Source of the DNA: Halomonas sp.
GTDB taxonomy: Bacteria > Pseudomonadota > Gammaproteobacteria > Pseudomonadales > Halomonadaceae
Length of the DNA stretch: 64,000 bases
Direction of reading: 5' to 3'
NCBI RefSeq assembly: GCF_017983445.1
Contig: NZ_JAGOBJ010000006.1
Location: forward strand, 181,585-245,584
Below are positions 2,751-56,180 of this stretch, one piece after another; position 1 is the stretch's first letter; each line of letters starts with the position of its first letter. Both the position numbers and the translations under genes were made by a program. The notes below the pieces were generated by a model, which saw only the letters and a program-made list of their open reading frames with translations, had not been told where the DNA came from and searched no databases.

Positions 2751-3360
2751 TATGCCACCCAACCCCGGCAGCGCTTGGCGCGCTGCTCCCGCGGGTGCGC
2801 TGGCGCTTACCACGCGCTACATGTATATCGCGCGAGGTTAGCATCCGGCCACTAACCGTAGCGCGTGGTAACGTTTTGCGAGGCACGAGCAAATAAGGCA
2901 CCCGCGGGGGGTGGCGTCAAGCCGCCTTGGCTGCGCCGCCGAAACCGGCAGCGCTTGGCGCGCTGCTCCCGCGGGTGCGCTGGCGCTTACCACGCGCTAC
3001 ATGTATATCGCGCTAGGTTAGCATCCGGCCACTAGCCGTAGCGCGTGGTAACGTTTTGCGAGGCACGAGCAAATAAGGCACCCGCGGGTGGCGGCGACAA
3101 GCCGCCTTGGCTGCGCCGCCGAAACCGGCAGCGCTTGGCGCGCTTCTCCCGCGGGTGCGCTGGCGCTTACCACGCGCTACATGGGTATCGCGCTAGGTTA
3201 GCATCCGGCCACTAACCGTAGCGCGTGGTAACGTTTTGCGAGGTACGAGCAAATAAGGCACCTGCGGGTAGCGGCGACAAGCCGCCTTGGCTCCCCCGCC
3301 GAAACCGTCAGCGCTTGGCGCGCTGCTCTCGCGGGTGCGCTGGTGCTTACCACGCGCTAC
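2751..3360. repeat. Tandem REP-pair array, 180-bp period
   Basis: Three and a half copies of a unit with an exact 180-base period. Right arms (…TTACCACGCGCTAC) end at 2820, 3000, 3180 and 3360; left arms (GTAGCGCGTGGTAA…) begin at 2858, 3038 and 3218. Each unit therefore carries two oppositely oriented REP elements, joined tail to tail through a GC-rich core and head to head through a 37-base spacer. The core is shared with the 54-56 kb array, but the spacer is different. The array fills most of the 750-base gap between two glycosyltransferase genes; no gene is supported there. Confidence 0.9.
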
Positions 3361-3369
3361 AGGTTTAAC

Positions 3370-3444
3370 CACTTACCACTCACCACTCACCACTCACCAC
3401 TCACCACTCACCACTCACCACTCACCACTCACCACTCACCACTC
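3370..3444. repeat. CACTCAC heptanucleotide tandem repeat
   Basis: One variant unit (CACTTAC), nine perfect CACTCAC units (3377-3439) and a partial unit that ends exactly at the stop codon (3445-3447) of the next glycosyltransferase gene. It begins 9 bases beyond the GTAG head of the last REP arm. This is the most regular heptamer run in the window and the likeliest to vary in length. Confidence 0.95.
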
Positions 3445-5739
3445 TTAACGCAGCGAAAAATCTTCATGCACGAGGGTCAAGTTCGGATTATAAGCTGGAT
3501 CATTATCGAGCTGTTTCGCCCAGGTACGGCGCATATAAGCCACTTCACCAAGCCAGCGGGCGCGTTTTTTAGGCGTATCGTCCGCCCCACGCGAGATAGA
3601 CTCATGATGATAAAGCTCGGCATGAGGCGTCCATAAGTTACGGTAGCCAGCTTCACGCACCTTCAAACATAAGTCGACATCGTTATAGGCGATGGTCAAA
3701 TCATGTTCGTTTAACCCACCTACATTGTTGAACACGCTTTTACGCAGCAACAGGCACGCAGCGGTTACGGCAGAGAGGTTCTGAGTTAGCTTCAAACGCC
3801 CGGTATAGCCTTCGCTGTCACGGGGGAAGAAGCGGTGAGCATGGCCCGCTACATCGCCTAACCCCAGAATCACACCACCGTGCTGTAGCATGCCGTTGGG
3901 GTAATAAAGCTTGGCGCCTACACAGCCAATTTCAGAGCGACAAACGTGGCTTACCATTTCGGTTAACCACTCGTCATTGATTGGCTCTACATCGTTATTG
4001 ATCAAACCAATGATGCTGCCATGGGCCTGACTTGCCCCGAAGTTATTTATCGCCGAGTAGTTAAACGGCTCGTCCCAGCGTAATACGCGTACACGGTCAT
4101 CACGCTGCGTCACTTCTTGCATATAGGCCAGCGTTTCTGGGCAGTCACTTTGATTATCCAGAATCAGTAGCTCAAAGTGCTGGTACTGAGTGCGCTCTAA
4201 AATGGCATCTACGCAAGGACGCAATATTTGCACGCCATTGCGGGTAGGCACCAATAGGCTAACCAAGGGTTCGGGGGTAGGAATAGGCCACTCTATCCGT
4301 ACCGAAGCAGGCGTAAGCCCAGGGTGTACCTTAGCCTCAAGGCTGGCAACATGTTGCGCTAATACCTTGCTCACCAAAGAAACCGCTACTTCCTGCTGAA
4401 TATGTTTGGCCGCTTTTTCATGACGGTGATAAAGCATGAAAGGTACATGGCGCACCGTAGAAGCCGAGCCATAATTGCTCTGCCAATTCAAAAAAGTAAG
4501 CGCTAGGGCGTAATCCAGGGCAGGCGCATCATGCAACTCTGAACGCAGGGTTAACTGATCTGCTTCGAACTGCCAAAGCAAGCGTCGCTTGTAAACCGCC
4601 ATGCGGCCAACGTAATTAGTGGAAAGTAATAAATCAGGATTCCAGGCAGGCTTGAATACCGGCTGGCAACGCTCACTGCGCCTGTTCAGGCTATCCTCAT
4701 CGGAATAAATCAGCTGGGCATCCGGGTAGTCATTCCAGGCCTCTGCCATTTGGCACAAAGCTTCCATTGACAGCTGATCGCCCACGCTAATACGCATCAC
4801 ACCATCGCCTTGCGTATTGACAAAGCCTTGATGATCGAGCTGCGCAAAGTGGGCTTGATGGCTATGAATCAAATTGACGCGACTTGAAAGGGGAATCACG
4901 TTCTTTAATTCGTGGTGCTGTTCAGCTGAAATATCAGCCGACAAGACAATAAAGATTTCCCAGAAGAAGTAGCTCTGCGTTTTTAACGAATTCAGGGTAT
5001 CAACAAAGGCCCCTGTGCCACGCTCAAGATCGCTGGGCAACACCACCATAATAATGGAGAACAGCGGCGTGGAATGTAGCGCTGCCATTAGCTCATAAGG
5101 GTCTCGGCTAGCCGCCAGCTCAGTGGTATCAATCCACCGTGTATAGTCATCATTAACATGCTGCTTGATATGCGTTTCGTCATACACCGAAAGCCCTATA
5201 TTGCGCCACCCCTGGGCTTGAGCCACTGACTCGATATGGAGTGAACGCACTACCTGACGCGTTTGCATGCCTTTATAGCGCGAGTGATTATTAATCAAAC
5301 GCCGCGCCAAGCGATCATGAGCGAACCATGGGGTTAACCACACCCATTCGATTGAAACCTTGGCAAGCGCCTCTTCTGAGGCTAGAAAAGTAAGCGTAAT
5401 ACGCTTTACACCCAGGGGCACCCAGATCAGACGCTTCGTGATTTTGCCAGGCCGAAGCGAAACCGAAAACTCGCGCTCCTCCCCAGAGGTATAAAGCGTA
5501 AGTGAAGCGGCACCATGAGCCTCAGGCCCCAAGCCGTCTAGCTCAAGCATATTCCAGCCCGGCCATGGTTTTTGGCCACCAAGCTCACATAACGTACTCT
5601 TTTCCAGCGCTACCTCATCTTCAAACGCTGGCGCACCCAATACACGCAAAGCCGAGGTGCGCCGCCAAAAGGCAGGCAGCCCATGGATTGCCTGAGGGGC
5701 CACTATCTTACTTATACCCTTAACCGCTTGTTGCCACAT
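3445..5739 (-). CDS. Two-domain GT2 glycosyltransferase
   Basis: A 764-residue protein. Residues ~1-200 form an N-terminal region with no family I recognise. A first GT2-like domain follows (about 225-450), containing YSDEDSLN and KPAWNPDLLLSTNY, the pattern typical of the first module of tandem rhamnosyltransferase-like proteins. The second, canonical GT2-A domain starts at SLLVPTRNG (about 490) with the metal-binding NNDVEP and the acceptor-side YNDVDLCLKVREAGY. GT2 enzymes transfer sugars from nucleotide donors by inversion in the cytoplasm; with dTDP-rhamnose genes nearby a rhamnosyltransferase role is plausible but is inference. The ATG start has AAGG seven bases upstream. The gene ends directly against the heptamer run, so its 3' end may have been reshaped by the repeat. 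Confidence 0.85.
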   Translation of the reverse strand: MWQQAVKGISKIVAPQAIHGLPAFWRRTSALRVLGAPAFEDEVALEKSTLCELGGQKPWPGWNMLELDGLGPEAHGAASLTLYTSGEEREFSVSLRPGKITKRLIWVPLGVKRITLTFLASEEALAKVSIEWVWLTPWFAHDRLARRLINNHSRYKGMQTRQVVRSLHIESVAQAQGWRNIGLSVYDETHIKQHVNDDYTRWIDTTELAASRDPYELMAALHSTPLFSIIMVVLPSDLERGTGAFVDTLNSLKTQSYFFWEIFIVLSADISAEQHHELKNVIPLSSRVNLIHSHQAHFAQLDHQGFVNTQGDGVMRISVGDQLSMEALCQMAEAWNDYPDAQLIYSDEDSLNRRSERCQPVFKPAWNPDLLLSTNYVGRMAVYKRRLLWQFEADQLTLRSELHDAPALDYALALTFLNWQSNYGSASTVRHVPFMLYHRHEKAAKHIQQEVAVSLVSKVLAQHVASLEAKVHPGLTPASVRIEWPIPTPEPLVSLLVPTRNGVQILRPCVDAILERTQYQHFELLILDNQSDCPETLAYMQEVTQRDDRVRVLRWDEPFNYSAINNFGASQAHGSIIGLINNDVEPINDEWLTEMVSHVCRSEIGCVGAKLYYPNGMLQHGGVILGLGDVAGHAHRFFPRDSEGYTGRLKLTQNLSAVTAACLLLRKSVFNNVGGLNEHDLTIAYNDVDLCLKVREAGYRNLWTPHAELYHHESISRGADDTPKKRARWLGEVAYMRRTWAKQLDNDPAYNPNLTLVHEDFSLR

Positions 5740-8144: not shown

Positions 8145-11100
8145 CTAACCGTTTGGCGACGTATTTATAAATTCGGGTACTTGTGAAAATTCATATGCGT
8201 TTGCCAGGGCGTTACGCAATGTTGAGGCGCCAAAACAGCGCTGAGCGCGTGTTCTACCTGCTTGGCCCATCTCAACGCAACGAGCGAGCGACTTGGCCAA
8301 TTTGGCTACCTGCTGCGCGGCCTTCAAAGGTGTTGCGTAAGGGACTAAATAGCCCGTTTTGCCGCTTTGCACCAACTCGCTCAAGGCGCCCCAGTTATAG
8401 GCTACTACGGGCCTGCCTGCCGCCATCGCTTCTAAAACAGTGCGCCCAAAAGACTCCTGGAAGCGGGATAGGTTCACCACAATATGCAGCTCGGCCAAGG
8501 CAGTGGCTGGTGCGTCTACGTAACCGGCGTAGATAAGATTGCCCGGCGCCTGCCCCTGCGCCTGGCGATGCTGCAGTGACTTGATAGCAGCCGTTAATGG
8601 CCCATAAAGCACCACCTCTACCTGGGGCGCCAGCGTTTGCAAGTGCGTGGCCATGGCCTCTACATCCGCCAGCCCTTTTTTGGCAACGTTGCTGCTTAGC
8701 ATGCCTACACGTACACGACCGTTTGCCATGAACGAGACATCAGGCAAGGCCAACAAGGGCGTCATCTCAATGGTATTGGGCACTACGCTAACAGGAGTAG
8801 CCTTTCCATCACACCCAGTTTTCAGGCTAAACGCCTGAGCTACACAATGTGAATTGGCAATAATGACATCAGCGTGCCGGTGTACGTGGGCGACCACCTC
8901 ATCCGCCGTTGCGCCCAGCAAATCACAAAGCGCCGTATCATGGGCGGGTAACTCGCGTATATGCACTAGCATTGCGATACCTTCCCGACGGGCCGCCACA
9001 TAGGGCTCCTGAAGTACTACCGTATTACCGTGCACGGCTTGTACATTAAAGCGTTTAAGCAATGCCTGAAAATGGGCGACGGTATCGTCACTAGCTACCC
9101 GCCCCACCTGCCACCAGCCATAAGGCAGTACGGCCAGCGCCTTGCAGCGGCTGAGCAGGCTTTGCTCGTATTCAACGTTATTCGCTTCAGGCAACGTGAC
9201 CACAACGTTCCAGCGAAGCTCGCCCATGGCTTCTAACACATCCAGCAAGCTGCGTTCGGCACCAAACAGCGTGCCCCCCGCCTGATGCCCACATAGCATG
9301 ACGGTAGGCCGCCCCGCGAATGATTGCTGCCCCTCCCATATGGGTAGCGCCTGCTGTATATCCGGACTTTCCTGGCTAAGGTAATGCACCAGCGGGTGCT
9401 TGCCTGCTGGCAAACCAGCAGGGTTAGCCCGCAAATAACCAGAGGTTGAGAAGTTAGGGCCGGGGTCGCGTCCTTCCTGAGCACCGCTTTCCCAAAAATG
9501 ACAAAGGGGCTCGATCACAACCTGCTGTAAATCGATGTAGCGCTCTAAATACCACCCGGCATCAAATAGCGCTGAATCAATCACTCGCTCGTAATCATGA
9601 TGGTAGGTATTGGCAGGCGCGGTGCTTCTTAGCATTGCCTGGGGTGCAACAAACAAACGCCCTTCTGGCGTTTGGGGCATATATAGCGCGTTGGGGCTTC
9701 TAGCCTGTTGATGCCAGTTTTGCGCCGCCTGCATGTAGTGAAACCGCATGCCCGCGAACTGGCTGGCCAAATGTGAGCGCGTATGTTGGCTTAACGACCC
9801 TTCATCGGCACGCCCAAACGCAAGTGGTACGCCTGGCAACACCTCTTGCAAGCTTTCTGGCCCGTAAGCGGCTTCTATGCGCAGGCGGTACTCGCTATCG
9901 GCATTAACGCTTACGTTATCCCAATAACCCAACCTATCCCTTACACTACGGCGGAACATCAGCGACGACATATTGGGGTACACCCACCCATACTCATCCA
10001 ACCGCCAACGGTGAAACAGTAATTCAGGCGTTACCCGCACCCAATGGGATAAACACGCGTTAAGGGAAGGATCGTTTAATAGCGCCTGACACTGAAGCGC
10101 CAACTTCTGAGGATACGACCAGTCATCGCTATCATGGGTGGTAATAAACTCACCACAAGCTACCGCCAGCCCCGTGTTACGGGCGGCATACGCCCCCTGA
10201 TTAACCGAATGGCGAATCAAGTGCAGAGAAATATGCGCAGGAGTATTTGCCTGGCACCATTCAATCACTTCGGCACTGCCATCCTGGCTTGCATCATCCA
10301 CCACGATGATTTCCAACCGCACACCCTGCTGATCAAATAGACTGCGCAACGCCGTCGCTACCGTATGTTGCGCGTTATAAAGCGGAATGATGACGGAAAT
10401 TAAGGGTAGCGAATGGTGAGTGGTGAGTGGTGAGTGGTGAGTAGCTAAACCTGTAGCGCGTGGTAAGCCTCCGCCGAAGGCGGTGCGCACCCGCGAAAGA
10501 TACTGCCACTGAAGCGTAGAGTAGCAAGGCACAAACCCCGTAGCGCGTGGTAAGCCTTCGCCACAGGCGGTGCGCACCCGCGAAAGATACTGCCACTGAA
10601 GCGTAGAGTAGTCAGCGGTGAATGGTAAGTGGTGAGGAGTGAATGATGGATGATTAAGTGCAAAACCCGTAGCGCGTGGTAAGCCTTCGCCGCAGGCGAT
10701 GCGCACCCGCGAAAGATACTGCCACTGAAGCGTAGAGTAGTCAGCGGTGAATGGTAAGTGGTGAGGAGTGAATGATGAATGATTAAGCGCAAAACCCGTA
10801 GCGCGTGGTAAGCCTTCGCCGCAGGCGATGCGCACCCGCGAAAGATCGTGCCACCGAGGTTTGGCACTGTTAGAAGCAAGGTTATCCAGATGCAGTGGCA
10901 ATTCATCGTCAGCCAAGGCAATAGGCTGCAATCCCTGCGCCTGAAAATGATGGTTGATAACCGCAAGCCGCTGTGAACCCTGTCCGGACGTTAAATGAAG
11001 CACATTGGCCTTTGCCAACGGCGTATCAGGGTGTTTTGGGAAACGTGCCTGTAAATCTTCCTGCGCCTGTTTAATCAAGCGGGCACTGATATTAGCACCA

Positions 11101-11576
11101 GGTTGGCGGTTGGCAATATCAATAACCAGCAAGGCGGGCCCTGGGTGCTCAAGCGCAATAAGCTTACCCTGGGGGGTTAACGTATCAAGTGCTGCTTGCC
11201 AATCCGCCTGCCAAACGTACCAGCGGGCCAATGCCCAGCGAGCGGTAAGCTGCTCTAGCGTATTTGAGTGCGGGTCGTTGAGTAAGCGTTGTAGCCTGGG
11301 CAATACGACCGCATGAGCACCACGCCATAGCCCATGCTCTAACGCCGGTGCCCGGTTACGGCAGGGCAAACGGCCTTCCGCTTTACCATGGCGCTGGTAA
11401 TGTTCCCAAGGATCAACACCGGCAGCCGCCACATCGGGATTAGCAGCCAAGTACCACTCGGTATCAAACTCCCGCTCTGCGAGGCTACCTTCAGTTGCCC
11501 CAGCTAGCGGCTCCGGGGTATTTACCCTCGCCACACGCTGCTGCCACCAGTTAGCTAGCTTTAAAAACATGGCCAC
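8145..11576 (-). CDS. GT2 + GT4 bifunctional glycosyltransferase carrying in-frame REP/heptamer repeats
   Basis: An 1143-residue polypeptide. Order: an FDxxWYLxxNPDV module (~32-70); a helical TPR-like region; a repeat-derived insert (~242-390); a GT2-A domain (SVIIPLYNAQ, HDSDDWSYPQK); a second FDxxWYL-type module; and a GT-B/GT4 domain with SFGRTVLEAMAAGRPV near the C terminus. The insert holds four in-frame copies of a REP-encoded peptide (SRVRIACGEGLPRATGF) plus heptamer-encoded TTHHSPL. The paralogue at 16781-18859 joins the same two domains with only a short linker, so the insert is secondary. Copies start at 10453, 10540, 10669 and 10798; the steps (87, 129, 129) are all multiples of three. 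The frame opens with GTG, but the ATG at 11570 is an alternative start. Confidence 0.85.
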   Translation of the reverse strand: MAMFLKLANWWQQRVARVNTPEPLAGATEGSLAEREFDTEWYLAANPDVAAAGVDPWEHYQRHGKAEGRLPCRNRAPALEHGLWRGAHAVVLPRLQRLLNDPHSNTLEQLTARWALARWYVWQADWQAALDTLTPQGKLIALEHPGPALLVIDIANRQPGANISARLIKQAQEDLQARFPKHPDTPLAKANVLHLTSGQGSQRLAVINHHFQAQGLQPIALADDELPLHLDNLASNSAKPRWHDLSRVRIACGEGLPRATGFALNHSSFTPHHLPFTADYSTLQWQYLSRVRIACGEGLPRATGFALNHPSFTPHHLPFTADYSTLQWQYLSRVRTACGEGLPRATGFVPCYSTLQWQYLSRVRTAFGGGLPRATGLATHHSPLTTHHSLPLISVIIPLYNAQHTVATALRSLFDQQGVRLEIIVVDDASQDGSAEVIEWCQANTPAHISLHLIRHSVNQGAYAARNTGLAVACGEFITTHDSDDWSYPQKLALQCQALLNDPSLNACLSHWVRVTPELLFHRWRLDEYGWVYPNMSSLMFRRSVRDRLGYWDNVSVNADSEYRLRIEAAYGPESLQEVLPGVPLAFGRADEGSLSQHTRSHLASQFAGMRFHYMQAAQNWHQQARSPNALYMPQTPEGRLFVAPQAMLRSTAPANTYHHDYERVIDSALFDAGWYLERYIDLQQVVIEPLCHFWESGAQEGRDPGPNFSTSGYLRANPAGLPAGKHPLVHYLSQESPDIQQALPIWEGQQSFAGRPTVMLCGHQAGGTLFGAERSLLDVLEAMGELRWNVVVTLPEANNVEYEQSLLSRCKALAVLPYGWWQVGRVASDDTVAHFQALLKRFNVQAVHGNTVVLQEPYVAARREGIAMLVHIRELPAHDTALCDLLGATADEVVAHVHRHADVIIANSHCVAQAFSLKTGCDGKATPVSVVPNTIEMTPLLALPDVSFMANGRVRVGMLSSNVAKKGLADVEAMATHLQTLAPQVEVVLYGPLTAAIKSLQHRQAQGQAPGNLIYAGYVDAPATALAELHIVVNLSRFQESFGRTVLEAMAAGRPVVAYNWGALSELVQSGKTGYLVPYATPLKAAQQVAKLAKSLARCVEMGQAGRTRAQRCFGASTLRNALANAYEFSQVPEFINTSPNG
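10411..10840. repeat. Composite REP + heptamer repeats inside a coding sequence
   Basis: Four GTAGCGCGTGGTAA-headed REP elements (starts 10453, 10540, 10669, 10798), with GTGAGTG-type heptamer runs at 10411-10445 and degenerate ones at ~10614-10658 and ~10743-10787. The whole block is an open frame on the minus strand and encodes the linker between the helical and GT2 domains of the surrounding gene. The last two full units are almost identical over 129 bases, indicating recent tandem duplication. Confidence 0.95.
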
Positions 11577-15762: not shown

Positions 15763-16796
15763 GCAACATCACCATTAATATATTTCTTTAGCAACCGCCC
15801 TTCCGCACTCAAGTAGCACTCCCCCAAATACCGATCAAACTCTTTACTAAATGAGGAGAACTGGCCTGGCCGCGGCGTAAATTCACCAAATGAGAATGTA
15901 TGCTTGCTTTTAATAAAGTCGATTCGCATGAAAGGTGTGGAAATGGCTTGGCTGATACGTTTGGCTATTTCAAGTTGTTCGTTGCTGAAACCATTGCCCA
16001 CGAAGGTTCTTCCAGCATAGCGCCCGGTTTCTGCCAAGCGGCCGTCCGGCAGCCATTCGCAGTAGCGGGTCTTATCAGCGCGCTCTACTTCCAAGATAAA
16101 TCCTACTTCACCGTAGAAGCAGTAGAACTTCAGATCCACGGTGGGAAGCGGTTTACCATCTTCAAAATCGCCAATAAATTCTTCGAGTAGCCACGAGTCT
16201 TTCTTGATGGTGCCTTGCACCATGAGGTTGTTAGCGTGAGTGAGCGCATCACTTGCAGAAGGTAGCGCTTTTCCCGTACGAACCTCGAATGCACCACCCT
16301 GCTGATCAAAAATGAACACACCCTGGCTAGAAGAGCCGTTCTCAGGCTTCAGCACTGTGCCTTTTCTAGGTTCAATGCTGGATAACGGCTTATTAAAAGC
16401 AAAGGTCTCAGGCCGCTTAACACCCAACTGATCGATAAACTGGTAGGCTGTCCGCTTGTTATTAAGCTTCCATTCCGGCTGAAAATTAAAAAGCTGCCTG
16501 CGCCGAGTGGCTTGTACCAATAATTGCTGGAAAGAAGCCGCACTGGTTAGCGGCAACTTATGCTGGCTGAGTAAGCGTGTGAATTTTTCAGTCAGCTCGT
16601 CTGCAGACAGCTGCTGTGACAGCTGTTCCAACACCGCCTGGCGCTCGTTTTCAGGCAGTGCTTGAGTAGCAGCAATCAATTGATTAGCAATAGCACGTTT
16701 CTTCGCTTTTTCGCTTTGTACTTTTTCTTCTGCTTGATCGAGGGCCTTTAACAAAGCCCCCACATCTTGCTGGCGTTTACTCACAGAACTCCCCAA
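15759..16796 (-). CDS. ATP-grasp protein (TupA-like)
   Basis: A 345-residue protein with an N-terminal helical region (~1-110, charged, coiled-coil-like) and a C-terminal ATP-grasp domain (~115-345) resembling TupA-like proteins of surface-polysaccharide clusters. Seen: VLKPENGSSSQGVFI (ATP-binding loop), LLEEFIGD, VDLKFYCFYGEVGFILEVER and the metal-ligand FMRIDFIK...FGEFTPRPG. ATP-grasp enzymes join a carboxylate to an amine; in glycan loci this could attach an amino acid to a uronic acid, which would fit the ugd gene here (inference). The gene overlaps the preceding glycosyltransferase stop by 16 bases and the following gene by four, so the three form one translational unit. Confidence 0.7.
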   Translation of the reverse strand: MGSSVSKRQQDVGALLKALDQAEEKVQSEKAKKRAIANQLIAATQALPENERQAVLEQLSQQLSADELTEKFTRLLSQHKLPLTSAASFQQLLVQATRRRQLFNFQPEWKLNNKRTAYQFIDQLGVKRPETFAFNKPLSSIEPRKGTVLKPENGSSSQGVFIFDQQGGAFEVRTGKALPSASDALTHANNLMVQGTIKKDSWLLEEFIGDFEDGKPLPTVDLKFYCFYGEVGFILEVERADKTRYCEWLPDGRLAETGRYAGRTFVGNGFSNEQLEIAKRISQAISTPFMRIDFIKSKHTFSFGEFTPRPGQFSSFSKEFDRYLGECYLSAEGRLLKKYINGDVA

Positions 16797-18859
16797 CTTT
16801 TCAAGCCTGTAAATTCAGGATATCCATCTAGAGGATACTCAGTTAACGAATTATCAGCTGTTTTGTATTGATTGGCATTAACCGATTGCCCCATAACCAC
16901 AGGCTCTACCTTACCCTGTTTGAGAAGCTCGAAATAGAGATTGCACAGGGCTTCAGGCGCCTTATGGAAGCTTGGCCAATGGAACATGGCCACCTTCTGC
17001 TTCGGGTGCTTGCGAATGAATTCCGCCGCCTTCTGGCAATCTTCCAAACGTGAAAAATCGCCTGCAATCACAATTTCGAAGTTAAGGGGTTCACCTGAAC
17101 GTTCAAACATACTGCGCGGCGCCGGGAATGCCCGCTTGGTTTTCGCGTCAGTCACATTCAAATGGCGTTGCGTAGTATGCCACCAAGCGCAAATTTCACG
17201 GTAAATGTGACGCAGACCAAAATACACGGTGCGCACATGAGTGGCCTTGGTACGGGTCAGGGATGACTCTTCATCCAACGCAAACGCGAGGGGTGTATCT
17301 GCATGAATCTTGGCGAACGATTTTTTGCCAAACTGCGCCTGCATTCGCCAAATGTATTCGGTATCCCCCCCGATACGTACGTGATCCCACTCGCCAATGG
17401 TTTCCAGCACTTCCCTACGGAACATAAACGAGGATTGGCTCCAGTGGGTCAGGCTGTTATTGGGCCGCCAGTTCTGGGTAAATGCCAAATTATCAAGCGC
17501 ACGTATCCAGTGAGCGGAACATCCTTTTACAGAAGGATGCTTTTCAAGGTATGCCACCTGGGTTGCTATTTTCTGGGGGTGCGACCAGTCATCACTATCA
17601 TGGGTGGTCAGCAAATCGCCGGTGGCGAAGCGCAGCCCATAGTTACGTGCGGCATAGGCGCCACCATTCTGGGAGGGCTGTACGGCTTTAACACGCGGAT
17701 CCTGTGCTTCCAGCGCTTTCAATATCTCAAAGGTGTTGTCTGGGGAGCAGTCATCAACCGCAATAATTTCGATATTATCGTAGGTTTGCGCTAACAGCGA
17801 CTCAATGGCTATGCGCACCTGCTCACCTGCACTGTAAATAGGCATGACGATAGAAACTTTCATCGCCCCTTTCACTTTAGGCGCAGGTAGTCCGACCACG
17901 TTGCCAATGGAAAGCGGTTTGGCTTTATCCTTGCGGCGAATACCTGTAAATCCGTGGATGGCAAACGCCTGATTAATGAGCTCTATGCGCTGATCATCAT
18001 CGCCTAATGCATTCGTCAGGGCAAAGTGGGCATCGGCGTCGTTCGGGTGGCGCGCTACATAAGGTTTTAAAGCAGCATGAGCCTCTTCGGCGCGCCCAAG
18101 GTTCAACAGGCAAAAGTAAGCAAGATAAACCGTTTCTTTGCGTGATTTATCGGCACCTGCCAGCTCGCGCATCTTGCCTGCAAAGGCTAGGGCTTGCTTA
18201 ATTTCTCCACAGAAGTAAAGCCAGCGAGCGGTATGCCACATGGCCCACCAGCGTGACGCTTCGGTGGCGGAAGGGTCGTTATACACCTCTTCCAAGGCTT
18301 TAAGCGCTGAAGTCGAATGGCCGTTCCATAACTGCACAGCAAGATTCGCAGTGCCATTAACTTCTTTATCTTTAATCTCGTTACCGTTGGCCTTACCTTT
18401 GTAAAGGTAATGCAGCAATGGCACTTCGCCATCCTGCATTTGGCTTTTGTGACTTTCCAAATAAAAGTCGCTATCAAATCGCTTGCAGGGGTTAAGGCCA
18501 AGTCGCCACCCCACCACCAAGTAGTGCAGAATGGGATCGACATGCTTAGGTACCCAAACCGCGTGCTCTGCCAAGTACCATTTACCGTTTACAAGGCGGG
18601 ACTTTTTAATCAGCGTAATATCTTCTTCAACCTTGCCCGGTCGGATAACAGATAGGGCTTCAAGCAGGAGCCGATCGCACACCTTTTTACTTTCAATCTT
18701 ACGCAAAGAAAGGGCTAAATTTACGTAAACCGGCTTAAAATTACTATTTGCTTTAAGTTCATTTACGTAGAAAGAGGCAGCCTGCTCATAGGCTCCTTGC
18801 CGATATAACTCATTTCCTTTTTGAAAATTCATAGGGCTGATCAGGCTCTCTGTGTCCAT
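16781..18859 (-). CDS. TPR-containing GT2 glycosyltransferase
   Basis: A 692-residue protein. N-terminal TPR-like helices (~10-90: FQKGNELYRQGAYEQAASFYV), then two WYL/HYL modules (~110-180: DPILHYLVVGWRLG, FDSDFYLESH), more TPR-like helices, and a GT2-A domain from about residue 330 (KVSIVMPIYSAG) with the metal-binding HDSDDW near 420. The GT2 domain and the preceding helical region align by eye with the first half of the 8145-11576 protein, so these are paralogues. A C-terminal ~100 residues is unlike standard GT2 proteins. Start: ATG 18859 has a poor ribosome site; ATG at residue 11 (MNFQKGNELY) is an alternative. Confidence 0.8.
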   Translation of the reverse strand: MDTESLISPMNFQKGNELYRQGAYEQAASFYVNELKANSNFKPVYVNLALSLRKIESKKVCDRLLLEALSVIRPGKVEEDITLIKKSRLVNGKWYLAEHAVWVPKHVDPILHYLVVGWRLGLNPCKRFDSDFYLESHKSQMQDGEVPLLHYLYKGKANGNEIKDKEVNGTANLAVQLWNGHSTSALKALEEVYNDPSATEASRWWAMWHTARWLYFCGEIKQALAFAGKMRELAGADKSRKETVYLAYFCLLNLGRAEEAHAALKPYVARHPNDADAHFALTNALGDDDQRIELINQAFAIHGFTGIRRKDKAKPLSIGNVVGLPAPKVKGAMKVSIVMPIYSAGEQVRIAIESLLAQTYDNIEIIAVDDCSPDNTFEILKALEAQDPRVKAVQPSQNGGAYAARNYGLRFATGDLLTTHDSDDWSHPQKIATQVAYLEKHPSVKGCSAHWIRALDNLAFTQNWRPNNSLTHWSQSSFMFRREVLETIGEWDHVRIGGDTEYIWRMQAQFGKKSFAKIHADTPLAFALDEESSLTRTKATHVRTVYFGLRHIYREICAWWHTTQRHLNVTDAKTKRAFPAPRSMFERSGEPLNFEIVIAGDFSRLEDCQKAAEFIRKHPKQKVAMFHWPSFHKAPEALCNLYFELLKQGKVEPVVMGQSVNANQYKTADNSLTEYPLDGYPEFTGLKSWGVL

Positions 18860-29058: not shown

Positions 29059-29604
29059 TTAAAATAGGGGCGCATTATTTACGCTAAGCCCTTTCTCATC
29101 TTTAGCGGAAAGGATGGGAGGTTGTTGGTTTATTAGGGGCCATTCAATAGCCAAGGTTGGGTCATCCCAACGTAGCGATACTTCATCACCGGGTGCGTAG
29201 TAGTCAGTGCATTTATACTGAAACTCGGCTTTCTCGCTCATTACGTAAAAGCCGTGCGCAAATCCGGGTGGCACCCATAGAAGCTGCTTGTTCTCTGCAT
29301 TGAGTGTTGCCCCTACCCATTGCCCAAAGGTGGGCGAGTTTTTGCGCATGTCTACTGCTACATCGAACACTTCCCCTTGGGTAACGCGTACTAACTTGCC
29401 CTGGGGCTGCTTATACTGGTAATGCAGGCCACGCAGGATGCCTTGGGCGGATTGGCTATGATTATCCTGCACGAATTGGTAATTTCCGCAATGGGCTTCA
29501 AATTCGTTCTGGCGGAAGGTTTCCATAAAGAAGCCACGTTCGTCACCGAAAACCTTTGGTGTAAGGAGCACGACCTCGGGAATGGCTAGTTTTTCGTAGT
29601 GCAT
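29059..29604 (-). CDS. rfbC: dTDP-4-dehydrorhamnose 3,5-epimerase
   Basis: Third step of dTDP-L-rhamnose synthesis. The 181-residue protein has the RmlC cupin signatures: PKVFGDERGFFMETF, QDNHSQSAQGILRGLHYQ with the catalytic histidine, GEVFDVAVDMRKNSPTFG, WVPPGFAHGFYV and YKCTDYYAPGDE. The open frame extends to 29688, but the added 28 residues are translated heptamer repeat (TIHHSLFTID) and the family start is the ATG at 29604. The usual ribosome-binding region is occupied by the heptamers, and no good Shine-Dalgarno is visible, so translation may be weak or coupled. Confidence 0.95.
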   Translation of the reverse strand: MHYEKLAIPEVVLLTPKVFGDERGFFMETFRQNEFEAHCGNYQFVQDNHSQSAQGILRGLHYQYKQPQGKLVRVTQGEVFDVAVDMRKNSPTFGQWVGATLNAENKQLLWVPPGFAHGFYVMSEKAEFQYKCTDYYAPGDEVSLRWDDPTLAIEWPLINQQPPILSAKDEKGLSVNNAPLF

Positions 29605-29616
29605 GTGTAAACCGTC

Positions 29617-29704
29617 AATGGTGAATAGTGAGTGGTGAATTGTGGGTGGTAGGTACGATGATAGCCATGGGGCCACTCCCCCCTTCACTACTTACTTCTT
29701 ACTC
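29617..29704. repeat. Opposed heptamer runs between rfbA and rfbC
   Basis: GTGAATAGTGAGTGGTGAAT (29620 onward) faces CCACTCCCCCCTTCACTACTTACTTCTTACTC (to about 29704), giving two heptamer runs in opposite orientation that could pair as a hairpin in the rfbA-rfbC message. The outer end reaches into the last codons of rfbA. Confidence 0.75.
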
Positions 29705-30685: not shown

Positions 30686-31600
30686 TCACAATTCACAATA
30701 TTCGCTTAGCGTCAGCGCTAGCTGGCTTTGCCAGTTTGGTAATGTGACACCCAACGCTGCCTCAAGTTTAGCCAGGCTCATGCGTGAATTGAGCGGGCGC
30801 TTTGCAGGTGTTGGGTATTCTAACGTGGGTATGCCAGCGGTGTTCTCGGGTGTGATTGCCAGCGCTTTGTCTGCATTGGCGGCTTGGCTGAAAATCTCAC
30901 AGGCAAAGCCGTGCCAGCTAGTTTCGCCGCGTGGGGCCAGGTGGTAGATGCCTTGTGGTATGTGAATGGTGAATCGTGAGCGGTGAATAGTGAGTGGTGA
31001 ATCGTGAGGTGTAAATGCTAAAGCGGTTACTTGGGCGATTAGGCGGGCGGGTGTGGGCGCGCCTATTTGGTCGTTTACGATGCTTAACGCTTCACGCTCA
31101 TAGCCCAGGCGTAGCATGGTTTTCATAAAGTTATTGCCACGTGCGGCGTATACCCAGCTGGTGCGGAAAATCAGGTGGTCGGCGCCACTTCCCGTTATCG
31201 CGTTATCACCTTCCAGCTTGGTTTGGCCGTAGGTGCTTAGCGGGCCAGTGGGGCTGTCTTCCTGCCAGGGGGTTTCGCCATTACCGGGGTACACGTAATC
31301 ACTTGAGTAGTGCACCAGGGTAATACCGTTTTGAGCGGCGTATTGGGCAAGCTGTGCGGGTAGTTCTGCATTCAGCCGCTTGGCCTGCTCAGGTTCGCTT
31401 TCGGCTTTGTCTACCGCTGTGTAGGCGGCTGCGTTGAGAATTAGTGCGGGCTTGTGCTCAGCAAGATAGGTATCGACGGCTTGAGCGTTGGTTAAATCGA
31501 GTTCCTGGCGTGTAGGGGCCAGGAGGTTACCGAAAATGGCAAATTGGCGTTGAAGCTCAAAACCGACTTGGCCGTTGCCACCGGTGATGAAGATGTTCAT
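30686..31600 (-). CDS. rfbD: dTDP-4-dehydrorhamnose reductase with heptamer-encoded insert
   Basis: Last step of dTDP-L-rhamnose synthesis (NADPH-dependent). Signatures: ITGGNGQVGFEL (nucleotide binding), LNAAAYTAVDKAESEP, the catalytic YSSDYVYPG...YGQTKLEGD, and GTYHLAPRGETSWHGFA-like GIYHLAPRGETSWHG. Between LAFTP and GIYHLAP lie about 20 residues (HDSPLTIHRSRFTIHI) not found in the family; they are coded by GTGAATN heptamers at 30957-31018. The insertion is in frame and at a surface-loop position before the substrate domain. AAGGAT sits five bases before the ATG. Confidence 0.93.
   Translation of the reverse strand: MNIFITGGNGQVGFELQRQFAIFGNLLAPTRQELDLTNAQAVDTYLAEHKPALILNAAAYTAVDKAESEPEQAKRLNAELPAQLAQYAAQNGITLVHYSSDYVYPGNGETPWQEDSPTGPLSTYGQTKLEGDNAITGSGADHLIFRTSWVYAARGNNFMKTMLRLGYEREALSIVNDQIGAPTPARLIAQVTALAFTPHDSPLTIHRSRFTIHIPQGIYHLAPRGETSWHGFACEIFSQAANADKALAITPENTAGIPTLEYPTPAKRPLNSRMSLAKLEAALGVTLPNWQSQLALTLSEYCEL
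30957..31018. repeat. Heptamer run inside rfbD
   Basis: Degenerate GTGAATG/GTGAGNN heptamers, about eight units, within the rfbD reading frame. The coding (minus) strand reads as the stop-free TCACCAN phase. Confidence 0.85.
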
Positions 31601-32907: not shown

Positions 32908-34020
32908 CTAAACGTTTTTGCCTAGGCGTTGCCCTTGGTAGCTGCGGTCTTGTACGCGTTTCCACCAGGTTTCGTTGGCTAGATACCACTCAACAGTTTT
33001 ACGTAGGCCGGTCTCAAACGTTTCTTCTGGGGTCCAGCCTAGTTCGCGCTCAATCTTACTGGCATCAATGGCGTAACGCACGTCGTGGCCTGGGCGGTCA
33101 GTGACGAAGGTGATTAGTTTTTTGTAAGTGGTGAATGGTGAATGGTGAATGGTAAGCGATGACTCTTGGGTGTCCTCGTCTGCTTTTAGGGGCACCAGCT
33201 CATCCAGGATTTCACATATGGTTTCCACTACGTGCAAATTCGTTTGCTCGTTGTGGCCGCCGATGTTGTAGGTTTCGCCTACTTGACCTTCGGTGGCTAC
33301 CTTGATGAGTGCGCGGGCGTGGTCTTCTACATAGAGCCAGTCGCGGATCTGCTGACCATCGCCGTACACCGGCAGAGGTTTGCCTGCCAGGGCGTTGAGA
33401 ATCATTAGTGGGATGAGTTTTTCAGGGAAGTGGTACGGGCCGTAATTATTGGAGCAGTTGGTGACCAACGTTGGCAGGCCGTAAGTGCGCTGCCAGGCAC
33501 GGACCAAGTGATCAGAACTAGCTTTGCTGGCGGAATAAGGCGAGCTGGGCGCATAGGGCGTTTGCTCGGTAAACAAGTCCTCCGTACCTTCCAGATCGCC
33601 ATACACCTCATCGGTGCTTATGTGGTGGAAGCGAAAGACAGCACGGCGCTCGCCTTCTAGGCTATTCCAGTAGCTGCGTGCCGCTTCAAGCAATACAGCT
33701 GTACCCACTACGTTAGTTTGAATAAACTCGGCCGGGCCGTCGATGGAGCGGTCTACATGGCTTTCCGCCGCCAAGTGCATCACTACATCAGGCTGGTACT
33801 GTTCAAATAGCCGCTGCATGGCATGCACATCACAAATATCAGCTTGCTCAAAGGTATAGCGATCACTGCCTTCAACCCTGGCCAGTGACTCTAGATTGCC
33901 TGCGTAGGTAAGCTTATCGATATTTACAACGGTGTGCTGAGTGTTACGAATCAACTCACGCACTACGGCAGAGCCAATAAAACCGGCACCGCCAGTAATT
34001 AAAAAGGTTTTAACGTCCAT
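32908..34020 (-). CDS. rfbB: dTDP-glucose 4,6-dehydratase with heptamer-encoded insert
   Basis: Second step of dTDP-rhamnose synthesis. Signatures: [16 protein letters not shown], the [15 protein letters not shown] motif, [11 protein letters not shown], the catalytic [15 protein letters not shown] and [15 protein letters not shown]. The 370-residue length exceeds the norm slightly because of about ten residues ([13 protein letters not shown]) inserted between DELVPLKAD and [14 protein letters not shown]. They are coded by GTGAATG heptamers at 33124-33158. The catalytic core is untouched, so the enzyme is probably active. Confidence 0.95.
33124..33158. repeat. Heptamer run inside rfbB
   Basis: GTAAGTG GTGAATG GTGAATG GTGAATG GTAAGCG: about five seven-base units within the rfbB frame, coding-strand phase CCATTCA. 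Confidence 0.9.
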
Positions 34021-36495: not shown

Positions 36496-36614
36496 CTTCG
36501 CGTCTTCTCCCGCGGGTGCCTCACTCGCTCGTTCCTCGCGAATTCGTTACCACGCGCTACGAAACCTCAAAACTCACCACTCACCACTCACCACTCACCA
36601 CTTACCACTTACCA
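36496..36614. repeat. Single REP followed by heptamer run
   Basis: A reverse-oriented REP (CCCGCGGGTGCC ... TTACCACGCGCTAC, ending at 36560) is followed after about 10 bases by (ACTCACC)n and ACTTACC units at 36571-36614. The same order and spacing recur at 3360-3444 and 38584-38668. The block fills the gap between the MBL and KpsE-like genes. Confidence 0.85.
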
Positions 36615-36619
36615 ATTTT

Positions 36620-38583: not shown

Positions 38584-38668
38584 TCTCGCGGGTGCCTCGC
38601 TGCGCTCGTTACCACGCGCTACGGGGCCTCGCGCTTACCATTTACTATTAACTACTCACCATTCACCA
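38584..38668. repeat. Single REP followed by heptamer run
   Basis: A reverse-oriented REP (TCGCGGGTGCCTCGC ... TTACCACGCGCTAC, ending 38622), then after ~11 bases the degenerate heptamers CTTACCATTTACTATTAACTACTCACCATTCACC (38634-38668). It fills the gap between the OPX and permease genes. Confidence 0.8.
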
Positions 38669-54312: not shown

Positions 54313-56168
54313 GTAGCGCGTGGTAACGTTTTGCGAGGAACGAGCAAATACGGCACCCGCGGGTGGCGGCGTCGAGCCGCCCTGGCCTTGCTACCCAACC
54401 CCGGCAGCGCTGGGCGCGCTGCTCCCGCGCCGGGCCGCCGCTGCGGGTGCGCTGGCGCTTACCACGCGCTACGGTTAGCGCCTCTCAGATTATTGGTGAA
54501 TCCCCATATGTAGCGCGTGGTAATGTTTTGCGAGGAACGAGCAAATACGGCACCCGCGGGTGGCGGCGTCGAGCCGCCTTGGCCGTGCCACCCAACCCCG
54601 GCAGCGCTGGGCGCGCTGCTCCCGCGGGTGCGCTGGCGCTTACCACGCGCTACGGTTAGCGGCCTCTCAGATTATTGGAGGTCAGTTCATATGTAGCGCG
54701 TGGTAACGTTTTGTGAGGTACGAGCAAATACGGCACCCGCGGGTGGCGGCGTCGAGCCGCCGTGGCCGTGCCACCCAACCCCGGCAGCGCTGGGCGCGCT
54801 GCTCTCGCGGGTGCGCTGGCGCTTACCACGCGCTACGGTTAGCGCCTCTCAGATTATTGGGGGAATCCCCATATGTAGCGCGTGGTAATGTTTTGCGAGG
54901 AACGAGCAAATAAGGCACCCGCGGGTGGCGGCGTCAAGCCGCCCTGGCCTTGCTACCCAACCCCGGCAGCGCTGGGCGCGCTGCTCCCGCGGGTGCGCTG
55001 GCGCTTACCACGCGCTACGGTTAGCGCCTCTCAGATTATTGGGGAATCCCCATATGTAGCGCGTGGTAACGTTTTGTGAGGTATGAGCAAATAAGGCACC
55101 CGCGAGTGCGCCGCGTCGAGCCGCCCTGGCCGCCCCCCAACCCCGGCAGCGCTGGGCGCTGCTTCCGCGGGTGCGCTGGCGCTTACCACGCGCTACGGTT
55201 AGCGCCTCTCAGATTATTGGGGAATCCCCATATGTAGCGCGTGGTAATGTTTTGCGAGGTACGAGCAAATACGGCACCCGCGGGTGGCGGCGTCGAGCCG
55301 CCCTGGCCTTGCTACCCAACCCCGGCAGCGCTGGGCGCGCTGCTCCCGCGCCGGGCCGCCGCTGCGGGTGCGCTGGCGCTTACCACGCGCTACGGTTAGC
55401 GCCTCTCAGATTATTGGGGGAATCCCCATATGTAGCGCGTGGTAATGTTTTGCGAGGAACGAGCAAATACGGCACCCGCGGGTGGCGGCGTCGAGCCGCC
55501 CTGGCCTTGCTACCCAACCCCGGCAGCGCTGGGCGCGCTGCTCCCGCGGGTGCGCTGGCGCTTACCACGCGCTACGGTTAGCGCCTCTCAGATTATTGGA
55601 GGTCAGTTCATATGTAGCGCGTGGTAACGTTTTGTGAGGTACGAGCAAATACGGCACCCGCGGATGGCGGCGCTAAGCCGCCTTGGCCGTGCCACCCAAC
55701 CCCGGCAGCGCTGGGCGCTGCTTCCGCGGGTGCGCTGGCGCTTACCACGCGCTACGGTTAGCGGCCTCTCAGATTATTGGAGAATCCTCATATGTAGCGC
55801 GTGGTAATGTTTTGCGAGGAACGAGCAAATACGGCACCCGCGGGTGGCGGCGTCGAGCCGCCTTGGCCGTGCCACCCAACCCCGGCAGCGCTGGGCGCGC
55901 TGCTCCCGCGGGTGCGCTGGCGCTTACCACGCGCTACGGTTAGCGGCCTCTCAGATTATTGGGGAATCCCCATATGTAGCGCGTGGTAACGTTTTGTGAG
56001 GTACGAGCAAATACGGCACCCGCGGGTGGCGGCGTCGAGCCGCCCTGGCCTTGCTACCCAACCCCGGAAGCGCTGGGCGCTGCTTCCGCGGGTGCGCTGG
56101 CGCTTACCACGCGCTACGGTTAGCGCCTCTCAGATTATTGGTGAATCCCCATATGTAGCGCGTGGTAA
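54313..56168. repeat. Ten-unit tandem array of inverted REP pairs
   Basis: Left arms GTAGCGCGTGGTAA start at 54313, 54510, 54693, 54875, 55056, 55234, 55432, 55614, 55794, 55976, plus a lone arm at 56155. The spacing is 178-198 bases. In each unit the left REP, a GC-rich core, and an inverted right REP (TTACCACGCGCTAC) make a ~145-160-base palindrome-like element. A 36-base spacer (GGTTAGCGCCTCTCAGATTATTGG...) follows. Two units carry a 16-base extra block. It lies between lgt and thyA; open frames within it are repeat translations and I do not call genes. This is the whole content of the ~2-kb gap. Confidence 0.95.
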
Positions 56169-56180
56169 TGAATAAAAATC

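Follow-up and report, generated by a model that had tools for sequence, protein, structure and literature searches.

How does DNA that is repeated mainly between the genes of a bacterial genome come to be translated in the middle of an enzyme? The question is raised by a glycosyltransferase of 1143 residues, encoded at 8145-11576 on the minus strand of the 64,000-nt stretch of Halomonas sp. DNA that we analyzed (the window; contig NZ_JAGOBJ010000006.1, positions 181,585 to 245,584). Its 1143 codons run without interruption through an N-terminal domain, a repeat-derived linker, a GT2 domain, and a GT4-like C-terminal domain. The protein belongs to both the GT2 and the GT4 class by its Pfam matches, to PF00535 (GT2; 3e-25, residues 394-517) and to the GT1/GT4 families PF13692 (1.5e-19, residues 972-1095) and PF13439 (2.5e-8, residues 772-937); none of the 25 NCBIfam models listed reached its own cut-off. 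A preliminary description, made from the letters alone, had proposed that REP elements and heptamers were amplified in frame within this gene, and the repeats, the reading frame, and the variation among orthologues agree with that proposal.

Four direct-repeat copies start at 10445, 10532, 10661, and 10790, and the spacing of 87, 129, and 129 nt given previously was reproduced. The corresponding REP copies, 43 nt long and in frame, occupy 10453-10495 (copy 1, GTAG...GCGCACCCGCG), 10540-10582 (copy 2), 10669-10711 (copy 3), and 10798-10840 (copy 4, closest to the N-terminal domain), all read on the plus strand. On the same strand, a heptamer array at 10403-10449 (TGGTGAG, perfect from 10414 to 10442, giving TTHHSPL on the coding strand) adjoins the GT2 domain, and degenerate heptamer arrays separate copies 2 and 3 (10606-10648) and copies 3 and 4 (10735-10781). 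Tandem Repeats Finder (TRF) reported TGGTGAG in 4.1 copies at 10414-10442 and a 129-nt unit in 2.5 copies at 10532-10854. The longest exact direct repeat of the gene measures 78 nt, and 200 codon shuffles gave at most 15 nt. In the protein, the REP-derived peptide LSRVR... begins at residues 245, 288, 331, and 360, and LPLISVIIP at residue 390 marks the onset of the GT2 domain. The repeat-derived segment of about 150 residues is therefore real, as described before, with bounds better placed at about 245-390 than at 242-390; likewise, the heptamer run begins near 10403, slightly ahead of the earlier start at 10411. All three spacings within the gene are divisible by three, against 33 of 82 extragenic spacings in the genome, a small sample on the genic side and a pattern that any open frame would impose. 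For this count, one REP-core site in an unrelated open reading frame (ORF) was excluded, and sites in three short ORFs made of REP array (121, 136, and 166 residues) were treated as extragenic.

A paralogue encoded at 16781-18859 aligns to the GT2 part (38%) and the N-terminal part (26%) of the glycosyltransferase, with only about 13 residues between the aligned parts, which bears out the earlier remark that it joins equivalent domains by a short linker. That a change in copy number alters the length of the linker, as also anticipated, follows from the sequence; the reach of the enzyme, named in the same remark, might change with it. A structure model of the glycosyltransferase was poor (mean pLDDT 43, from six sequences). 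Residues 231-380 scored 19-30 in blocks of ten, but parts of 511-690 scored as low (22-35), and the model thus gives no proof of a disorder specific to the linker.

The in-gene copies belong to a family that is abundant in this genome. All four begin with GTAG, the tag that marks one end of the short imperfect hairpins of this family, and GTAGCGCGTGGTAAGC and GCGCACCCGCG are common to them and the hairpin family of the genome; when folded, copy 3 forms a hairpin that leaves GTAG unpaired. The pattern GTAGCGCGTGGTAA(8-38)CACCCGC has 99 exact matches in the genome, all of which have the outer stem of the four 43-nt copies in common with them, and the reversed-pattern control gave none. Ninety of these matches fall within 107 kb (C1:171762-279144), 7 lie on contig C6, and 2 on C3. 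This REP cluster around the polysaccharide region may serve as a set of recombination points for the exchange of polysaccharide genes. The gene at C1:174606-175115, which ends about 140 nt ahead of the first REP of a large array, encodes a RAYT (NF047646, 189 bits; cut-off 80) and is the sole Y1_Tnp match of the genome at an E value of 0.001. Extragenic REPs recur every 152-207 nt on one strand. The window contains extragenic REP arrays at 2765-3361 (180-nt period, 3.3 copies) and 54443-56170 (182-nt period, 9.5 copies). The REP pattern is present in 47 of 82 genomes of the genus (window genome included). The 43-nt form, searched for in the same 82 genomes with up to 3 mismatches, occurs only in the glycosyltransferase gene, in four copies in the window genome and in one copy, with two mismatches, in the orthologue of genome G037. 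GTAG REPs are typically extragenic, and the four copies lie within an intact gene; this does not exclude them from the family, because intragenic copies are documented (PMC3733652). They are GTAG REPs in the sense of that work.

The second kind of repeat is equally concentrated. A search that allowed up to 2 mismatches per 21 nt and counted overlapping registers gave 28 heptamer matches in the genome, 27 of them within C1:184949-220252, and heptamers are found as tandem 7-nt units in 41 of the 82 genomes of the genus (window genome included). The reversed-pattern control is not independent for heptamers, TGGTGAG read backwards being a rotation of itself. Tandem 7-nt units that are spread across a genome and mostly non-coding are familiar from the STRR repeats of cyanobacteria. 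In the window, arrays on the minus strand lie at 3363-3452 (11 units with 98% matches by TRF, at the 3' edge of the ORF 3445-5739 and abutting a GTAG REP at 3346) and, extragenic and each followed by a GTAG REP, at 36546-36617 and 38608-38668. In the rmlC ORF as listed (29059-29688), a plus-strand array at 29610-29651 occupies the 5' end. The listed start is a GTG upstream of this array; translation probably begins at MHYEKL..., and the array would then lie between rmlA and rmlC, in the 5' leader.

Part of the heptamer arrays are composite with REPs, in a constant order. The junction TAAACCT|GTAG is identical at 10453, in the gene, and at 3346. Among 33 arrays at 30 loci of the genus, 6 have a GTAG REP after them, on their own strand and no more than 60 nt away, and none has one ahead of it, against a background of 1%; the other 27 arrays have no such REP after them. 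We recognized only 3 of the 33 sampled arrays as lying inside genes, and these were again RmlD, glycosyltransferase, and RmlB genes. Since the genic arrays recognized are so few and fall in the same three genes, heptamers may have entered genes rarely and long ago. Some further sampled arrays sit in open frames of 170-310 codons, mostly near the ORF start; in other genomes, the heptamer arrays of L055 (1492-1558), L056, and L062 lie within open frames of 174-286 codons. A class-wide peptide search found a heptamer-type peptide in 17 of 274 genomes (window genome included), from which related heptamers probably extend past the genus. In that search, such peptides lie within open frames 395-833 residues long in genomes G328, G208, and G253, where heptamers may thus also be translated.

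The repeats differ in what their two strands can encode. Read as CTCACCA, the heptamer is open in all three frames, each of which encodes the cyclic peptide TTHHSPL, and the opposite strand has a stop in every frame. In the repeated 129-nt unit, two of the three minus-strand frames are wholly open and the third contains stops, as do all plus-strand frames. In the glycosyltransferase, rmlD, and rmlB genes of the window, the coding strand is the stop-poor strand of the repeats. Several RmlB alleles of other genomes have heptamers of the opposite strand with the stops mutated, so that the stop-poor orientation is a tendency and not a strict rule.

A segment shared by all orthologues would have spoken for a conserved domain, the outcome that the preliminary description had named as contrary to its own reading. 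Among the 81 other genomes of the genus (apparently Vreelandella/Halomonas), 14 have a full-length orthologue, of 995-1061 residues. The four-copy segment is absent from all 14, which rules out a conserved domain; the segment is inserted and amplified. Judged by eye, 5 of the 14 orthologue linkers contain heptamers together with a REP, which is clear in two of them (L004, L006) and degenerate in three (L005, L007, L008), 1 contains heptamers only (L002), and 8 contain neither. A scan of named genomes gave five loci, in V. andesensis, V. alkaliphila, V. stevensii, V. lutescens, and H. alkaliantarctica FS-N4, and the genus assignment above goes back to these. At the same position, the linkers of L009 and L010 have another in-frame repeat, 15-nt units encoding KEVNN, in one and two copies.

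The history of the segment is not a simple one. In a glycosyltransferase tree built with the linker left out, the window gene groups with L003, whose linker has no recognizable repeat, and not with the REP-bearing L004-L008. The tree requires two changes for the REP and three for the heptamers. A single REP insertion with simple vertical inheritance is not supported; the history calls for losses, for a transfer of the segment, or for repeated insertion. The window gene and L004 are 79% identical in the linker (64/81) and 68% identical in the GT2 domain (602/885); for the other six rows compared, the values are 61-80% (53/87 to 65/81) and 68-69%. These identities are only suggestive of linker transfer as the source of the window segment, because REPs and heptamers are alike throughout the genus and the aligned part is short.

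The glycosyltransferase lies in one cluster with RmlD and RmlB, and all three contain translated heptamers; the preliminary description had reported only those of the glycosyltransferase. RmlD (dTDP-4-dehydrorhamnose reductase, 30686-31600, minus strand; TIGR01214, 282.5 bits, cut-off 224; PRK09987, 291 bits, under its cut-off of 308) has a heptamer-derived loop, encoded by a plus-strand array at 30960-31017 that yields the peptide FTPHDSPLTIHRSRFTIHIP. We took 50 of the 55 RmlD matches of the genus and measured the loop in 49 (all but L136). The heptamer-bearing alleles are contained in a clade of 32 rows (support 98/89), named after inspection of the tree, in which the loop is 32 (19 rows), 39 (11 rows), 46 (1 row), or 81 residues long (1 row); all 32 lengths equal 4 modulo 7. 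The heptamer peptide itself has decayed in several rows of the clade, e.g., L097, L098, and L100. The sister of the clade, L132, has a 25-residue loop without heptamers, and in the remaining 17 measured alleles, 8 loops equal 4 modulo 7 and 9 do not. At least 11 changes in loop length are needed on the clade tree, each a multiple of seven residues, which is expected if three heptamers (21 nt) form the step that keeps the frame. If any length modulo 7 were allowed, the chance of 11 such multiples would be about 5e-10, on a minimum count from a tree with open forks. The longest measured loop (81 residues, L143, from the rmlD gene of genome G014) has a 14-residue unit repeated about four times (FTPHDSPSTMHHSR).

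RmlB (dTDP-glucose 4,6-dehydratase, 32908-34020, minus strand; TIGR01181, 520 bits, cut-off 365; PRK10217, 657 bits, under its cut-off of 698) likewise contains a heptamer-derived loop, of which a plus-strand array at 33120-33164 encodes 15 residues. Among the best 30 matches, to which the alignment was confined, 10 have an insert and 20 do not; an upstream 10-residue haplotype accompanies all 10 inserts, and NEKANL stands in all 20 other rows. In L104, L106, L108, L111, and L125, opposite-strand heptamers (AGTGAGG with AGTTAGG units, encoding a SEELGVR-type peptide) occur beside forward ones, and the inserts of L104, L111, and L125 have an additional SPQGAHPSQA-like segment. The solved relatives of RmlD (1kbz) and RmlB (1g1a) align with gaps at the positions of the inserts, i.e., they lack them.

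We propose, with a probability of roughly 0.8, that repetitive DNA has turned coding at this locus and that the repeats are tolerated in linkers and loops, where they evolve by frame-preserving changes in copy number. The proposal builds on the observed identity of the genic repeats with the REP and heptamer families of the genome, the variation among orthologues, the seven-residue steps of RmlD, and the composite build of part of the arrays. The starting material would have been the TGGTGAG-type heptamer arrays of the genus, some of them directly followed by a GTAG-type REP. In the window genome, both kinds of repeat are mainly intergenic and lie around the polysaccharide locus, near the single gene for a RAYT (REP transposase). 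Repeat material would have come to occupy the linker between the domains of the glycosyltransferase, and heptamers one loop each of RmlD and RmlB, either through the RAYT, which may mobilize the REP, or through recombination with neighboring arrays. After entry, the copy number would have changed by slippage or unequal recombination, with only frame-preserving changes surviving; in RmlD these are multiples of three heptamers (21 nt, or seven residues), and in the glycosyltransferase they are units of 87 and 129 nt. Inserts in such linkers and loops are presumably nearly neutral. Several observations count against the proposal: the grouping of the window gene with the repeat-free L003, the small share of sampled arrays with an adjoining REP (6 of 33), the opposite-strand heptamers of RmlB, and the small number of genic arrays. 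Neither transposition nor a change of copy number inside one species was seen.

A bolder version of this proposal seems to us rather doubtful, if conceivable. Since a 7-nt unit is coprime to the codon and one of its strands is open in all three frames, the heptamer could act as a generator of TTHHSPL independent of frame wherever it inserts in that orientation; drift in copy number would set the loops and linkers of polysaccharide enzymes in seven-residue quanta, with on/off intermediates. Because the heptamer can travel with a REP in this genus, REP arrays would supply and expand protein linkers at the polysaccharide locus.

Selection on the length of the insert would also produce variable arrays. 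Copy number might be selected because it spaces the N-terminal and GT2 domains, or because it sets the length of the RmlB or RmlD loop, and it is true that the linker varies strongly in length among the 15 glycosyltransferase rows and that the RmlD loop has changed repeatedly. Neutrality predicts the variation of the linker equally well, however, and 8 of the 14 orthologues have no recognizable repeat in the linker, while the sequence of the inserts drifts; the structure model, with its mean pLDDT of 43, is too weak for a judgment. We consider such selection unlikely. The arrays could instead form a phase-variable contingency locus, in which slippage of the heptamers would turn one of the three enzymes (glycosyltransferase, RmlB, or RmlD) on or off and surface polysaccharide would vary from cell to cell. 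As in such loci, the unit lies inside the reading frame and is not a multiple of three, so that the change of a unit shifts the frame: arrays longer or shorter by 7 or 14 nt would truncate the glycosyltransferase to 389-402 of its 1143 residues, RmlD to 222-264 of 304, and RmlB to 299-309 of 370, and the addition of 21 nt to any of the three arrays leaves the frame open. Surface-polysaccharide genes are, moreover, typical targets of phase variation. However, the shortness and impurity of the genic arrays speak against frequent switching. The longest perfect heptamer tract of the glycosyltransferase gene is 29 nt, and the longest perfect period-7 run has a median of 16 nt in 40 genic segments versus 36 nt at 27 other loci, a comparison biased because the search pattern for the other loci favors pure arrays. 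The genic arrays inspected are in open frames as well, although the rows were found by protein match and switched-off alleles are perhaps under-sampled. On balance, switching of this kind appears improbable here.

Two further explanations concern the nucleic acid and the assembly. If the REPs acted as nucleic acid, with mRNA hairpins that affect transcript stability, pausing, or gyrase binding, the peptide would be a by-product. The in-gene hairpin is indeed kept (copy 3, -19.7 kcal/mol on one strand and -21.2 kcal/mol on the other), and by eye a C-G pair of the inner stem has changed to T-A between copies, with a T-G intermediate. The copies are very few, however, hairpins are a trait of the REP family in any case, and in the orthologues L005, L007, and L008 the hairpin sequence is largely gone (by eye) while the frame is kept; we give this explanation very little weight. 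The genome is a draft of 16 contigs, and drafts fail at repeats, which could make the segment an artefact of assembly. Against this, the four copies are not identical in base sequence or in unit length, the frame is intact across 1143 codons, and related segments occupy the same place in independent genomes, so that an artefact is highly improbable. We retain the proposal that repetitive DNA has turned coding and is tolerated in linkers and loops. With it, REPs in genes become a countable system, in which the RmlD loop shows repeated length changes of a fixed step across the genus and the glycosyltransferase offers linkers with zero, one, and four related repeat units. Such a system makes it possible to test directly if protein derived from repeats is neutral, tuned, or switched, and by which route intergenic repeats turn into coding sequence.

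The preliminary description had regarded several REPs within one gene as unusual. Their presence there is no surprise in light of Di Nocera et al. 2013 (PMC3733652), who describe REPs within ORFs of several species. In Thauera and Rickettsia conorii, the REP clusters of that paper encode 43-82 residues; it also describes tandem reiteration of REP units along with flanking DNA, and REP arrays on the flanks of the exopolysaccharide genes of Thauera MZ1T. With these intragenic GTAG REPs, the copies studied here share the GTAG-tagged hairpin, the grouping of copies in ORFs, the association with a RAYT, and a suggested neutrality in flexible linkers or loops. They differ in that four copies have been co-amplified with heptamers, a word absent from the main text of PMC3733652, into a segment of about 145 residues, compared with 43-82 in the larger clusters reported there. 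Rickettsia palindromic elements, as described in the same paper, are also palindromic repeats in frame within protein genes, but the R. conorii elements have CGTC at one end where ours have GTAG, and the genic cases recognized here are in three polysaccharide genes. The heptameric repeats of Xanthomonas and Nostoc (PMC4692102) resemble ours as seven-nucleotide tandem units that are found genome-wide and mainly in non-coding DNA; their unit is GGGNATC rather than TGGTGAG, they are reported as under-represented in coding regions, and the passages on them make no mention of seven-residue steps in proteins.

Simple-sequence contingency loci, finally, also combine a tandem unit that is not a multiple of three with surface-polysaccharide genes. 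Here, in contrast, the arrays are short and degenerate, their length varies between species in a frame-preserving manner, and no switching was observed. In the open-licence literature that we searched, literal strings such as TTHHSPL gave no match, and among the papers listed we found neither heptamer-encoded peptides with seven-residue steps nor the heptamer-REP composite nor heptamer peptides in RmlB or RmlD. Compared with all of these systems, the seven-residue length steps of RmlD across related species appear to be new.
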